The notes under the pieces: generated by a model
What the model saw: only the letters and a program-made list of their open reading frames with translations
Told to the model about the DNA's origin: nothing
The model's database searches: none
Made by a program: the position numbers and the translations under genes
Assembly: GCF_003612055.1 (NCBI RefSeq)
Contig: NZ_RAWB01000025.1
Coordinates: forward strand, 1-36,536
Direction: 5' to 3'
Source: Corallococcus llansteffanensis
Lineage (GTDB): Bacteria > Myxococcota > Myxococcia > Myxococcales > Myxococcaceae
DNA length: 36,536 bases
In this document: piece by piece, positions 25,681-32,325 of the stretch
How the letters are laid out: each line of letters opens with the position of its first letter
How positions within the stretch are numbered: position 1 is the first letter of the stretch

Positions 25681-26115
25681 ATGGCACGAGGAAGCAAGGC
25701 GAAATACTCGGAGAAGCAGAAGCGCATGGCCGAGCACATCGAGAAGGGCTACGAGGACAAGGGCAAGAGCGAGAAGACCGCCGAGGCCCGCGCGTGGGCC
25801 ACCGTCAACAAGCTCACCGGTGGCGGGATGAAGGGCGGCTCCGGCAGCAAGGCGAAGGCGGCCCGTCAGCGTCCCGCGGCCCGCAAGAACGCGCGCAAGG
25901 CGGGGAAGGTCGGTGGCAAGCGCCGCGCCGCGACCGCGAAGAAGACCGCCACCTCCAGCCGCCGCAAGGCCGCGCCCACGCGGGCGAAGCGCGCCACCAC
26001 GGGCCGCAAGGCCACGCGCACCGGGACCGCCGGCAAGCGCTCCACGGCGCGCAAGAGCACGGCGCGCAAGAGCTCCGCCCGCAAGAGCACGGCGAAGCGC
26101 GGCTCGCGCAAGTAG
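25681..26115 (+). CDS. histone-like basic protein with plasmid-stabilisation-type N-terminal domain
   Basis: A 144-residue protein in two parts. Residues 1-57 (YSEKQKRMAEHIEKGYED, then SEKTAEARAWATVNKLTGGG) match a widespread small domain often labelled plasmid stabilisation protein in proteobacteria; its biochemical role is not established. Residues 58-144 are almost only Lys, Arg, Ala, Ser, Thr and Gly, with repeated KSTARKS units like the tail of histone H1 and of bacterial H1-like proteins, so nucleic-acid binding and a disordered tail are likely. ATG 25681 follows AGGAGGGTGACGC, a strong RBS. The gene stands alone between a divergent lipid kinase and a convergent HAD gene. A role in compaction of DNA is inference from composition. 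Confidence 0.85.
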   Translation: MARGSKAKYSEKQKRMAEHIEKGYEDKGKSEKTAEARAWATVNKLTGGGMKGGSGSKAKAARQRPAARKNARKAGKVGGKRRAATAKKTATSSRRKAAPTRAKRATTGRKATRTGTAGKRSTARKSTARKSSARKSTAKRGSRK

Positions 26116-27858: not shown

Positions 27859-28206
27859 CTACTTCACCGCCACGCCGGTCGCGGAGGAACTGGTGATGCC
27901 GATGATGGTGCCGAACAGGGCGAAGATGCCGTGACGGGGCGTGGTGTTGGCCGACTTCAGGTCGACCTTGGAGGCGCCCATGGCCTTCGCCTCGGAGATG
28001 AGGAGCTTGTTGACCACGGTGTCCAGGTCGCTCTGCACGATGTCGATGATGTGGAAGATCGCGGTCAGACCCAGCGAGCTACCCTGGATGACGGCCACGG
28101 CCTCGCCGTTGGCGGCGATCTCGGAACCGGAGACAACGGCGGACTCGACGCTGGTGCAGCCCACGAGGGAGGCGGCGGCAACGGCGGACAGGATGAGCTT
28201 CTTCAT
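27859..28206 (-). CDS. small lipoprotein of unknown function (115 aa)
   Basis: A 115-residue lipoprotein: signal peptide MKKLILSAVAAASLVGC with lipobox LVGC (Cys17). The mature chain begins TSVESAVVSGSEIAANGEA, has a mainly hydrophobic middle (AVIQGSSLGLTAIFHIIDIV), then KLLISEAKAMGASKVDL, a short basic point and a hydrophobic, Ser/Thr-rich end (FALFGTIIGITSSSATGVAV). The phrase with EAKAMGA-x-V-D recalls small bacterial lipoproteins of the TRL type, but I cannot confirm this. The RBS GGGGAG is 6 bases before the ATG. It is a single-gene unit with its own terminator at 27792-27828 and a strong leader hairpin at 28241-28268, suggesting a well-expressed gene. Confidence 0.8.
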   Translation of the reverse strand: MKKLILSAVAAASLVGCTSVESAVVSGSEIAANGEAVAVIQGSSLGLTAIFHIIDIVQSDLDTVVNKLLISEAKAMGASKVDLKSANTTPRHGIFALFGTIIGITSSSATGVAVK

Positions 28207-28418: not shown

Positions 28419-29423
28419 ATGCACCCGGTTTCCGTTCCGCGTCCCGCCCCGCCCTCCCGCGTCTGGCTGCACCTGCTGCTGTTCGTGGTGACCCTGGGGA
28501 CGACGTTCCTCGCGTACCTGCTGCTCTTCGGCCAGTCGTTCCCCTTCAGCGAAGGGGGCCTGTCCCCGCGGGACCGGACGCAGGCGCTGGCCTTCAGCGT
28601 GTCGCTGCTCGCCATCCTGGGCTCGCACGAGATGGGGCACTACGTGCTGGCGCGGTGGCACCGGGTGGACACGTCGCTGCCGTACTTCATCCCCCTGCCG
28701 GTGCCCGGGAGCCTGGGCACGCTGGGCGCGGTCATCCGCCTCAGGGGGCGCATCCCCACGCGCAACGCGCTGGTGGACATTGGCGCGGCGGGGCCGCTGG
28801 CGGGCCTGGTGGTGGCGCTGCCGCTGCTCTACTGGGGGCTTCTGCACTCCACCGTGGTGGACTCGCCCGCGGTGCCTTCGCCGTTCCCGGGTGACTCGTC
28901 GCTGTGGGCGCTGGGACAGGACCTGCTGCATTGGGTGATGGAGCGGCTGACGAACGCGCCGCCCGCGCTGGAGCCCGTCCTCACCCAGCGGCAGACGCAT
29001 TTCGGCGACAACCTCATCATGAAGGCGCTGACGTGGCTGGCCCTGGGGCCCGTGCCCGAGGGCAAGGACGTGGTGGTGCACCCGGTGGTGATGGCCGCGT
29101 GGTTCGGCCTGCTGGTGACGCTGCTCAACCTGCTGCCGGTGGGGCAGCTGGACGGCGGCCACCTGACGTTCGCGGTGCTGGGCCCCCGCGCCCGCACGCT
29201 GGGCAAGGGCGTGGCGTGGGTGCTGCTCTTCCTCACGGTGTTTGTCACCGCGTCGTGGGGCCTGTGGCTGCTGGTGGCGAGCAAGGTCGTGGGCTTCGGC
29301 CACCCGGAGGTGGTGGAGCCCACGGAGCCCCTGAGCCCCGCGCGCAAGCTCATCTGCGCGCTGTGCCTGCTGGCGCTCATCGGCTGCGCGATGCCCATCC
29401 CCCTGCGGGAGGTGCTGACATGA
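28419..29423 (+). CDS. site-2 protease family intramembrane metalloprotease (M50)
   Basis: A 334-residue polytopic zinc protease. The HEMGH motif (His70, Glu71, His74) lies in a hydrophobic segment, and the third ligand Asp245 is in NLLPVGQLDGGH. About six to seven membrane helices are visible, including 15-37, 56-76, 119-140 and the C-terminal ones. There is no PDZ domain, unlike RseP, so it belongs to the compact S2P group. Such enzymes cut membrane-bound regulators such as anti-sigma factors to release signals; the substrate is unknown. Its last codons overlap the next gene in ATGA, so the two proteins are translationally coupled. The ATG at 28419 gives a short Pro-rich leader before the first helix; the RBS is weak. 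Confidence 0.93.
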   Translation: MHPVSVPRPAPPSRVWLHLLLFVVTLGTTFLAYLLLFGQSFPFSEGGLSPRDRTQALAFSVSLLAILGSHEMGHYVLARWHRVDTSLPYFIPLPVPGSLGTLGAVIRLRGRIPTRNALVDIGAAGPLAGLVVALPLLYWGLLHSTVVDSPAVPSPFPGDSSLWALGQDLLHWVMERLTNAPPALEPVLTQRQTHFGDNLIMKALTWLALGPVPEGKDVVVHPVVMAAWFGLLVTLLNLLPVGQLDGGHLTFAVLGPRARTLGKGVAWVLLFLTVFVTASWGLWLLVASKVVGFGHPEVVEPTEPLSPARKLICALCLLALIGCAMPIPLREVLT

Positions 29424-30193
29424 AGTACCAGTGCGAGGCCTGCGAGCGGCTGGTCCCGGTGGAGTCCTTCCGCGTGGAGGACGGGGTGCTGACCGTGACG
29501 TGTCGGGCGTGCGGCGCGCGGACCCTCGCGCAGTCGTCCCCGGCTCCAGCCCTCTCCAACGAGGTTCCCCGCGAGGGCGGTGGGGGGCGTGGCGGCAGCG
29601 AGGGCGTCGCGGTGGCGGTCCCCACTCCGGAGAGCTTCGCGTCCGCGCCGCCCGTGCCTTCCCGCGTCAGTGTCACCGCCCTGCGCGTGGTGCGCTCCGA
29701 CGCGCCGTCCGCCGAGGCCCCCGCCCTGGACGGGGACCCGTTCCAGGCCCCGCCGGGGCACTGCCCCAAGTGCGTGGCGCCGAAGCGGGAGGAGGACGGG
29801 GCGTGCGCGCAGTGCGGGCTCGTCTACGCGAACTTCCTCCCGGACGAGCACCTGCCCTCCGGGGTGCTGGCCACCGAGTGGCGCGCGCTCCTCCAGACGT
29901 GGGACGACGACGAGGCGCATGACCGGCTGGTCACCCTGGCGGTGGGGCGGGGGGAGCTGGCCATGGCCGGCCGTCTGTACCGCCTGCGGCTGGCCCGGGC
30001 CCCGGGCGATGTGAAGGCGCTGCGGGGGCGGGACGAGGTGGTGCGCCGGGTGACGTCCGTGGTGCCGCTCGCGTCCGACGGCCCCTCGCCGGAGCTGGCC
30101 CGCAAGGTGAAGAGCATGGTGATGGGGGCCGTGCTGCTCGTCGCGCTGATGCTGGTGGTGCTGCTCTTCCAACTGCTGCGCGGCTCCTTCTAG
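29420..30193 (+). CDS. zinc-ribbon protein with C-terminal membrane anchor
   Basis: A 257-residue protein with two four-Cys metal sites: Cys5, Cys8, Cys28, Cys31 (MKYQCEACE ... CRACGA, similar to MJ0042-type zinc fingers) and Cys115, Cys118, Cys129, Cys132. Between them is a Ser/Pro/Gly-rich linker. Residues 140-215 look helical and TPR-like (WRALLQTWDDDEAHDRLVTLA, AGRLYRLRLARAPGDVKALR), followed by one hydrophobic segment near 234-253 (VMGAVLLVALMLVVLLFQLL) and a tiny tail. It is thus a tail-anchored inner-membrane protein with its zinc sites in the cytoplasm. The ATG overlaps the protease stop (ATGA), so it is made with the site-2 protease and is a possible substrate or adaptor of it (inference). 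Confidence 0.85.
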   Translation: MKYQCEACERLVPVESFRVEDGVLTVTCRACGARTLAQSSPAPALSNEVPREGGGGRGGSEGVAVAVPTPESFASAPPVPSRVSVTALRVVRSDAPSAEAPALDGDPFQAPPGHCPKCVAPKREEDGACAQCGLVYANFLPDEHLPSGVLATEWRALLQTWDDDEAHDRLVTLAVGRGELAMAGRLYRLRLARAPGDVKALRGRDEVVRRVTSVVPLASDGPSPELARKVKSMVMGAVLLVALMLVVLLFQLLRGSF

Positions 30194-30327
30194 ACGGGGC
30201 GGGGAACCGCTGGCCGGCCTGCTTCCCGGGCAGGCGGTGGAAGCGGTGGACAGGAACGCGCGAGCAGTGTCGGACACTGTTATCCTGGGTGGCCGCTCTT
30301 CTGTCCTCCTGCCCCCGAAACCGACGC

Positions 30328-32325
30328 ATGTCCGCGCCCGCGCCCCGTCCCCCCTCTGTCGACAGCCTGCTGGGTCCTGGCGGTGCGCTGGAGCAGGCGC
30401 TGCCCGCGTACGAGCACCGTCCGGAGCAGCTCCAGATGGCGCGCGCCGTGGAGCGGGCCTTCTCCGAAGGCAGCTACCTGCTGGCGGAGGCCGGCACGGG
30501 CACGGGCAAGACGCTCGCCTACCTGGTGCCGGCGCTCCTGTCCGGCCTCAAGGTGGTGGTGTCCACCGCGACAAAAACGCTGCAGGACCAGGTGTTCTTC
30601 AAGGACCTGCCACTGCTCAGCGAGAAGCTGGGGCTCCAGTTCGAGGCGGCCTACCTCAAGGGGCGGGGCAACTACCTCTGCCTGCACCGCTACGAGTCCT
30701 TCGAGAAGGATCCGCAGTTCGTCTCGCGGGACGAGGCGAAGCAGTGGCCGCTGCTCAAGAAGTGGGTGACGCAGACGGAGACGGGGGACCGGGCGGAGCT
30801 GGACCTGCCGGAGTCCTTCGCCGCGTGGTCGCGGCTGTCCACCACGTCGGAGACGTGCCTGGGGTCGCGCTGCGCGCAGTATGAGACGTGCTTCGTCACG
30901 AAGATGCGCAAGCGCGCGGAGACCGCGAACCTGCTGGTGGTGAACCACCACCTGTTCTTCGCGGACCTGGCGCTGCGCAGCTCCGGCAAGCGCACCGAAG
31001 GGGTGCTGCCCTTCTACGACGCCGTCGTCTTCGACGAGGCGCACGCGCTGGAGGACGTGGCCAGCGGCCACTTCGGCTATAGCGTCTCCAACTACCGGCT
31101 GGAGGAGCTGGCGCGCGACGCGGTGGCGGCCCTGCCGGCGAAGGACGACCGGCACCCGACGCTGTCGGCGCTGGCCCAGCGGGTGCGCTCGCACGCGGAC
31201 GCGCTGTTCGTCCAGGCGCCGCGCGCGCTGGGGCTGTCCAGCCAGGAGTCCACCGTGGCGCTGCGCCCGGAGACGATGGGCAAGCTGTCCGGCGCGCTGG
31301 AGCAGGTGCGCGAGGGCCTCTCCGCGCTGGCCTCCTTCTCCGGCAGCGAGCGAGAGGCGGAGCTGGCCGCCATCCACCGCCGCGCCGAGGAGATGGTGGA
31401 GCAGCTCACCTTCCTGGAGAAGGCGGAGTCCTCGGAGCACGTGTACTGGGCGGAGGCGCGCGGCAAGGGCCTGTTCCTGCGCGCCAACCCCATCGACGTG
31501 GCAAAGGAGCTGAGAGACAGGCTCTATGGCGCGCTCGACACGGTGGTGTTCACCTCCGCGACGCTCGCGGCGGACAGCCGCTTCGACTTCTTCGCCAAGC
31601 GCATGGGCATGTACGACGACGAGGGCCAGCCGGTGACGCGCGTGCGCACGCTCGCGGTGCCCAGCCCGTTCGACTTCCCGCGCCAGTCCGCGCTGTACCT
31701 GCCCACGCACCTGCCGGACCCCAGCGCCCCGGGCTTCATCGAGGCGGCGGCGGAAGAGATCATCAAGCTGTGCGAGGTGACGGGCGGGCGCGCCTTCGTG
31801 CTCTTCACGTCCCTGCGCAACATGGTGCGCGCGTACGAATTGACGGCCACGCGGCTGCCCTACCAGGCGCTGCTCCAGGGCGAGCGGCCCAAGGCGCAGC
31901 TCCTGGAATCCTTCCGCCAGACGCCCAGCGTGCTCTTCGCCGCGCACAGCTTCTGGGAGGGCGTGGACGTGCCCGGGGACGCGCTGAGCCTGGTCATCAT
32001 CGACCGGCTCCCGTTCGCGTCGCCGGGCGACCCGCTGGTGGCCGCGCGCATCCGGCAGATTGAGGCGCGCGGTGAGGAGCCTTTTGATCAGTACCAGTTG
32101 CCGCAGGCGGCGCTGGCCCTGCGACAGGGCTTCGGGCGGCTCATCCGCACGCAGGCGGACCGGGGCATCGTGGCGATGCTGGACCGGCGCATCGTGACCA
32201 AGGGCTACGGCCGGGTGTTCCTCTCCAGCCTGCCGCCCGCGAAGCGGATGGAGGACACGACGGAGCTGAGCCGCTGGTTCAATGGACCGGTACGCCCCGT
32301 TCCGCCTCTGAGAACCGTTCGTTGA
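30328..32325 (+). CDS. DinG/YoaA-family ATP-dependent helicase with Fe-S cluster
   Basis: A 665-residue superfamily 2 helicase of the XPD/DinG type, which unwinds DNA 5'-3' and removes R-loops and other blocks after damage. Walker A is AGTGTGKT (residues 55-62) and the DEAH box is at 236-239. Four cysteines that should hold a 4Fe-4S cluster are Cys118, Cys177, Cys182 and Cys188, in the expected place between them. Motifs of the second RecA domain include VFTSATL, FTSLRNMVRAYE, HSFWEGVDVPG and a final QGFGRLIRT. It lacks the exonuclease domain seen in some Firmicute DinG proteins, so it is closer to YoaA. ATG 30328 is preferred over 30289 because the latter begins in untypical sequence; no strong RBS is seen. 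Its 3' end overlaps the TonB receptor gene by 47 bases. Confidence 0.95.
   Translation: MSAPAPRPPSVDSLLGPGGALEQALPAYEHRPEQLQMARAVERAFSEGSYLLAEAGTGTGKTLAYLVPALLSGLKVVVSTATKTLQDQVFFKDLPLLSEKLGLQFEAAYLKGRGNYLCLHRYESFEKDPQFVSRDEAKQWPLLKKWVTQTETGDRAELDLPESFAAWSRLSTTSETCLGSRCAQYETCFVTKMRKRAETANLLVVNHHLFFADLALRSSGKRTEGVLPFYDAVVFDEAHALEDVASGHFGYSVSNYRLEELARDAVAALPAKDDRHPTLSALAQRVRSHADALFVQAPRALGLSSQESTVALRPETMGKLSGALEQVREGLSALASFSGSEREAELAAIHRRAEEMVEQLTFLEKAESSEHVYWAEARGKGLFLRANPIDVAKELRDRLYGALDTVVFTSATLAADSRFDFFAKRMGMYDDEGQPVTRVRTLAVPSPFDFPRQSALYLPTHLPDPSAPGFIEAAAEEIIKLCEVTGGRAFVLFTSLRNMVRAYELTATRLPYQALLQGERPKAQLLESFRQTPSVLFAAHSFWEGVDVPGDALSLVIIDRLPFASPGDPLVAARIRQIEARGEEPFDQYQLPQAALALRQGFGRLIRTQADRGIVAMLDRRIVTKGYGRVFLSSLPPAKRMEDTTELSRWFNGPVRPVPPLRTVR

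Follow-up and report, generated by a model that had tools for sequence, protein, structure and literature searches.

In the window, by which we mean the whole stretch of 36,536 nucleotides that was analysed, the gene of a putative site-2 protease overlaps the gene of a tail-anchored zinc-ribbon protein (here called ZN), and this raises the question of what the two products have to do with each other. The first-pass annotation had taken ZN for a candidate substrate of the protease and had named co-occurrence of the two genes as one check. The coordinates, strand and overlap that it gave, together with two Cys4 sites and one C-terminal helix in ZN, were borne out by the sequence, the alignment and the hydropathy scan. 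The relation that it drew between the two proteins was partly supported.

The upstream gene (28419..29423, forward strand) encodes a protein of 334 aa, which was identified as a PDZ-less site-2 protease (S2P; M50) from PF02163, an AF2 model, VIA-align and Foldseek. In Pfam, the Peptidase_M50 (PF02163) match had an E of 4.4e-23 and 82.2 bits, against a cut-off of 27.2. The zinc-binding motif HEMGH (residues 70-74; 28626..28640, forward strand) falls within model helix 50-80, placing an HExxH in a membrane segment as in this protease family, and its H70, E71 and H74 were invariant in 52 aligned orthologues. On another segment lies the second motif, of the LDG type, NLLPVGQLDGGH (residues 237-248; 29127..29162, forward strand). 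Here N237, P240, Q243, D245, G247 and H248 were invariant in the same 52 orthologues. The AF2 model had a pLDDT of 93.2 and a pTM of 0.89. Its top VIA-align match was the S2P of M. jannaschii (3b4r; Z 10.2, 194 residues, 5.3 A), tied with SpoIVFB (8vjm; Z 9.9, 181 residues, 4.2 A); rows 1-9 were all S2P/RseP-type entries, with Z from 10.2 to 6.9, and the next row dropped to Z 4.7. Foldseek put the same S2P entries at the top, yet with an E of 2.8e-03 at best, and the best sequence match among solved structures was likewise MjS2P (3b4r, profile E 2.2e-06). On sequence and model fold together, the product is a predicted protease of the S2P family. No PDZ domain was found, PF02163 being the sole Pfam match at E up to 1, which sets the protein apart from group I (the RseP type). 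The absence of any Pfam domain besides M50 would also be compatible with S2P groups II and IV, which according to the accessible part of PMC10202637 have no additional domains and are not extensively characterised. The genome (10.5 Mb) contains further M50 proteins, with seven matches, two of which lie within one open frame.

The downstream gene (29420..30193, forward strand) encodes ZN, a protein of 257 aa, whose architecture was derived from an alignment of 36 homologues and an AF2 model, with codon-position bias as a check on the reading frame. All features lie on the forward strand: Cys4 site 1 (C5, C8, C28, C31; 29432..29512), invariant in the 36 homologues; Cys4 site 2 (C115, C118, C129, C132; 29762..29815), at least 90% conserved in them; a TPR-like helical domain at residues about 148-218 (29861..30073), delimited by the alignment, the model helices and weak fold matches; and a C-terminal membrane helix (best 19-residue window 30113..30169) with a tail of 7 residues. 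The model had a pLDDT of 80.7, the linker between the Cys4 sites being of low confidence. The helical domain is the part of ZN that is kept most widely, with W161, R188, D197 and A200 invariant in the 36 homologues. Its fold matches were weak, many of them to TPR or TPR-like proteins (Z up to 8.8; Foldseek E 0.16 at best), and the top VIA-align rows were farnesyltransferase alpha chains, at a Z of 8.8 that can mean merely a common arrangement. These searches hardly probed the zinc parts, and the weak helical matches pointed to no clear family. Pfam had no TPR match to the window's ZN at E up to 1.

ZN had no confident Pfam or NCBIfam assignment. None of the Pfam zinc-ribbon models exceeded its cut-off in the window's ZN (Zn_ribbon_4, PF13717, reached 13.4 bits against 30.3), so that the conserved Cys pattern and the model are the grounds for the label 'zinc ribbon'; Zn_ribbon_4 did match 18 of the 36 members at E up to 1, at best with 5.1e-05. 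Among PDB profile matches, all weak, the best (E 0.027) linked Cys4 site 1 to a domain of gliding protein X whose structure is solved (7zok). The zinc sites are not present in every relative. Cys4 site 2 is missing in L079, and both sites are missing in four proteins of family f5 (L078, L082, L089 with an inferred gene start, and L092) and in L179 of f21. All five of the latter adjoin the protease and retain the helical-plus-membrane core beside it. Among the 36 loci, the named contigs with the closest ZN relatives were mostly Corallococcus, then Myxococcus, Pyxidicoccus, Citreicoccus, Hyalangium and Archangium, in addition to MAGs. A record titled Comamonas sp. KCTC 72670 (BNCN01000017.1, L127) holds a myxobacteria-like ZN that is 54% identical to that of the window, and is probably mislabelled or contaminated.

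A hydrophobic C-terminal helix was present in all 59 ZN homologues scanned, with a median tail of 7 aa. Positive charge was more abundant before the helix than after it in 38 of these, equal in 15 and less abundant in 6. The sequences favour a tail-anchored protein whose zinc part faces the cytoplasm, the single helix being predicted N-inside. We also looked in this helix for a signature linked to the protease and found none: outside the genus, polar residues numbered 2.38 of 19 where ZN adjoins the protease and 2.29 where the protease was not found (p 0.82), and Pro occurred within the helix in 1 of the 59 homologues. This may speak, weakly, against a substrate that is under selection for cleavage. 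The tails were longer where the protease was not found (median 13, compared with 10 for adjacent genes outside the genus; p 0.056, confounded by relatedness), a weak difference in the direction that the substrate reading might predict.

The two genes share the four bases ATGA (29420..29423, forward strand) as start and stop. Four-base overlaps of this kind are frequent among bacterial genes. The first-pass annotation held that the overlap forces joint synthesis, which overstates the case, as ZN has a Shine-Dalgarno-like GGAGG of its own within the protease gene (29408..29412, forward strand), 7 nt before its ATG. Such a stretch preceded ZN in all 14 members of the genus that were checked, and in 21 of the 36 genomes when the other genera are counted in. 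It was not flagged in six further genomes that share the overlap (G032, G022, G018, G026, G023 and G017), and coupling is more plausible in these for that reason. The sequence thus favours the view that the overlap makes joint synthesis of the protease and ZN likelier without forcing it. When close relatives were compared, substitutions were in excess at third positions in both genes, from which it follows that both are coding; a spurious second frame was ruled out by this same mark of coding selection. In a consensus scan, two weak terminator-like sites and no site resembling a promoter were seen 5' of the protease gene, and none between ZN and the helicase gene that follows it.

To see how widely the pair is kept, we considered relatives at two depths. 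Of 59 relatives, 41 had ZN and 50 had the protease, and across 193 genomes of the phylum each of the two was matched in 144 (E up to 0.001). Nineteen ZN genomes were dropped because the match was weak or, where placed, covered mostly the first zinc site only, leaving 125, and G063 was taken out of the protease genomes, as no place was listed for its match, so that 143 remained. The resulting table has both genes in 116 of the 193 genomes. In 100 of the 116, from eight family codes, ZN lay directly 3' of the protease on the same strand, adjacency being defined as a gap of -60 to 450 bases; most adjacent loci examined had the 4-base overlap, and -4 overlaps occurred in several genera. Chance adjacency was ruled out by this recurrence of the gene order. 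The genes were separated in the remaining 16, of which 15 belong to f1, the window's own family, and one to f3. When 61 proteases were placed on a tree and labelled as adjacent, separate or no-ZN, the labels together needed 8 changes and 'separate' needed 3; this was a quick tree with 20 of its 57 inner branches open and a root for drawing only, and the shuffles ignore relatedness. From these sequence comparisons, the adjacency looks old and seldom broken. In one genome (G007:C473:8616-9458) the protease match came in two pieces (residues 1-92 and 145-333), from a frameshift, a gap or an assembly error, and the helicase match of G007 was likewise in pieces.

Co-occurrence gave a divided answer, with the genes adjacent in 100 of 116 genomes on the one hand and, on the other, apart in 16 and each found without its partner elsewhere. 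ZN was alone in nine genomes, of which two (G055 and G172) are incomplete, at 86% and 89%, and were left out as evidence. In the other seven, from f24, f29, f30 and f31 (G078, G097, G102, G103, G105, G106 and G111), the orthologous protease was not found at E up to 0.001. All seven have other M50 proteins, whose loci reached no more than 28.1 bits with the protease profile, compared with 432.7 for the window protease, in a scoring that covered 30 of the 56 listed places of the nine genomes. A dedicated substrate should be found only where its protease is, and these seven genomes depart from that pattern. ZN very probably has a use that is independent of this protease, to judge by its distribution. 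Conversely, 27 genomes had the protease without a convincing ZN (the 27 of the table minus G071, where a ZN relative without zinc sites stands beside the protease, plus G063). The absence is not certain in each of them, as 11 of the 27 had a dropped ZN match, the matched part of which was sometimes not listed. In 12 protease loci without ZN, from 11 genomes, the ZN profile gave nothing at E up to 1.

The pair is itself part of a wider gene order. Next to ZN in the window lies a gene for a YoaA/DinG-type DNA helicase (30289..32325, forward strand; NF053712 1e-222; the start may be 30331), and a helicase stood beside ZN in 16 of the 20 examined ZN loci with room to see it. Outside f1, the order also takes in a gene for a lipoprotein-like (LpoA/LppC-like) protein with TPR repeats and a Peripla_BP_6 domain. 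Of 42 genomes, 31 had it directly 5' of the protease, 4 more had it on the same strand at a distance of up to 4 kb, and in 7 it was unlinked, the 42 being the tabulated genomes outside f1 for which the place of the lipoprotein was listed. The order lipoprotein-protease-ZN was seen in f13 and others. In f7 it was lipoprotein-protease-helicase without ZN, in some cases with the lipoprotein set off by a gene or a gap, and in f24, f29 and f30 it was lipoprotein-ZN, ZN coming directly after the lipoprotein in 6 of the 7 ZN-only genomes (all but G103). Protease and ZN are both missing from G136 and G144, where lipoprotein and helicase are direct neighbours. The lack of both genes in G009 was rejected as a co-loss, because the contig ends 100 bases past the helicase start. 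Where ZN is separated from the protease, it was still beside the helicase in 6 of 7 examined genomes (G016, G019, G020, G028, G033 and G036; not G031). Protease and ZN in turn stay together in G006, G010, G014 and G022, where the lipoprotein is far off, and in G022, G026, G029 and G030, where the helicase is not beside ZN; three of the last four have the -4 overlap, and G029 has a 2-base gap. Read from gene order, the drop-outs point to a predicted conserved operon with members that can separate, and not to an obligate pair.

Several further observations concern these neighbourhoods. The lipoprotein-S2P-ZN-helicase order with drop-outs was also seen in L161-L180, L078, L080 and L082, from other families of the phylum; in the last three, the gene after the helicase resembles, from its translation, a small Ras-like (MglA-type) GTPase. 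G031 has a further ZN-like gene (G031:C141, L100), with no protease or helicase match in the stretch examined. Divergent from the protease in the window is a strongly conserved gene for a lipoprotein-like protein of 115 aa (27859..28206, reverse strand), with matches of 53-97% identity in the examined loci of the family and some others and no confident Pfam/NCBIfam family. This gene stays by the protease in G016, G019, G028, G031 and G033, where ZN has moved, and by ZN in G036. Farther upstream, positions 25681-26115 (forward strand) hold an open frame of 144 aa whose C-terminal tail is rich in Lys, Arg and Ala and resembles histone H1.

A comparable arrangement on a single chain occurs in the genome of the window itself. 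There, a second M50 protein (G000:C916), cut by the contig end, has an N-terminal Cys4 and a TPR-like segment (so called from its sequence) followed by the membrane core. This protein and that of G002:C153, in the same genus, are like the window pair in having Cys4 and TPR-like parts ahead of an M50 core, and unlike it in forming one chain instead of two and in the distance of the core, which scored 45.6 bits against the protease profile, compared with 432.7 for the window protease. The fused protein is patchily distributed: of 193 genomes, 22 had listed matches that spanned it wholly or for the most part, and the matches in G000 and G007 were shorter. Its Cys4 was present in 19 of 19 sequences inspected. 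The loci are L005, L217 (G000:C916) and L219-L244. HHalign paired the fused N-terminal part collinearly with the ZN profile along the second zinc site and some of the helical domain, at a probability of 21.8%, which does not establish kinship between the two. By analogy, an M50 protease can apparently carry a zinc/TPR-like module permanently, which would fit an accessory role of ZN better than a substrate.

Known systems resemble the window pair in part. The window protease and ZN are like RseP and RseA in the catalytic motifs and in the single span of the client, a part that ZN would play here. RseP differs in having PDZ domains and in acting after site-1 cleavage of RseA, as described in the accessible text of PMC10202637. 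ZN also differs from RseA in having almost no ectodomain, and no anti-sigma family appeared among the 25 of 54 families listed for its 36 members. For M. jannaschii, whose S2P (3b4r) was the first structural row and the best sequence match among solved structures, we know of no zinc-ribbon partner; that protease is archaeal, unlike the one in the window. The genes spoIVFA and spoIVFB share one operon. SpoIVFB, with SpoIVFA and BofA, is comparable to the window pair as a PDZ-less S2P with membrane partner proteins, going by what is accessible of PMC10202637 and PMC9042235, and it is a structural match (8vjm). In contrast to SpoIVFA and BofA, ZN has cytoplasmic Cys4 sites, a TPR-like part and a short tail. 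Adaptors of the Fis1 type also combine a TPR-like bundle with a C-terminal anchor. Fis1 was among the weak fold matches of ZN (2pqn, E 0.51 in Foldseek; 9aye, Z 4.9 in VIA-align), with scores that do not establish kinship, and it is eukaryotic and has no zinc ribbon.

When the explanations were weighed, an accessory adaptor came first and mere neighbourhood nearly as likely, followed by a substrate and, last, a BofA-like inhibitor. We give a probability of roughly 0.4 to the reading that ZN is a tail-anchored cytoplasmic accessory subunit, an adaptor or scaffold, of the protease at the inner membrane. The membrane helix would hold ZN near the PDZ-less protease, the zinc-ribbon and TPR-like part would bind a cytoplasmic partner or client, and the overlapping genes would keep the two proteins in similar amounts. 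This reading builds on the motifs, the predicted topology, the fold of the model, the deep conservation of gene order and the place of the pair in the wider order; the contact of ZN with the protease, what its TPR-like part binds and an effect on cleavage are what we infer. Adjacency in 100 of 116 genomes, the joint absence of the pair in G136 and G144 and the zinc-less core kept beside the protease are consistent with it. The residues of the helical domain are invariant and the sequence of the membrane helix varies, as would be expected of an anchor plus a binding domain. An accessory role was also preferred to a substrate because the second protease of the genome bears Cys4 and TPR-like parts on its own chain, a point tempered by the kinship of that segment with ZN, which is not established. 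ZN without the protease in seven genomes means that its role cannot depend wholly on this protease, and the 27 protease genomes without a convincing ZN likewise count against an accessory subunit, as does the frequent placing of S2P-family protease genes in operons with unrelated genes (rseP, rip1). It is possible, if somewhat doubtful, that the two proteins are mere neighbours in a conserved operon of lipoprotein, protease, ZN and helicase and act separately. Such an arrangement would account for the collinear order with gene drop-out, for the lipoprotein directly 5' of the protease in 31 of 42 genomes and for ZN beside the helicase in 6 of 7 examined genomes with the protease elsewhere. It accounts less readily for the four genomes in which protease and ZN stayed together as the lipoprotein moved, and for the four in which they did so as the helicase moved.

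The proposal of the first-pass annotation, that the ZN helix is cut without a prior site-1 cut and the zinc-ribbon/TPR-like part is freed into the cytoplasm, kept part of its ground, and we consider it rather unlikely. Adjacency in 100 of 116 genomes is tight, and the topology fits a client of a PDZ-less protease that needs no site-1 cut: all 59 homologues have one helix at the C-terminal end and a short tail after it (median 7 aa), which leaves no ectodomain to shed, charge is greater before the helix than after it in 38 of 59, and the protease has M50 alone in Pfam. SpoIVFB, also a PDZ-less S2P, acts independently of site-1 protease according to the accessible part of PMC10202637. The proposal fares poorly with the separations, with the zinc-less relatives that adjoin the protease, with ZN in genomes where the orthologous protease was not found, and with a helix that carries no signature, its polar content being the same with and without the protease (p 0.82) and Pro being present in 1 of 59. 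Still less probable is a dedicated one-step pair, in which the PDZ-less S2P would cut a co-translated ZN without site-1 cleavage and the freed regulator may act with the YoaA-type helicase. We regard as very improbable that ZN is a negative regulator whose helix sits in the active-site cleft, like BofA on SpoIVFB. Membrane inhibitors of S2P do exist, BofA and SpoIVFA being described as such in PMC9042235, but BofA is there said to need residues in and near its membrane segment, and the ZN helix shows no conserved residue.

The first-pass annotation knew of no described pair of this type, and our search of the literature (titles and abstract openings, with few subscription journals) agreed in finding none. 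What the locus offers is a partner gene, widely conserved beside a member of a known protease family, and that literature gave no description of the pair. Its place beside such a protease across the phylum makes the product of this gene a first, concrete candidate for a partner or client of the protease.
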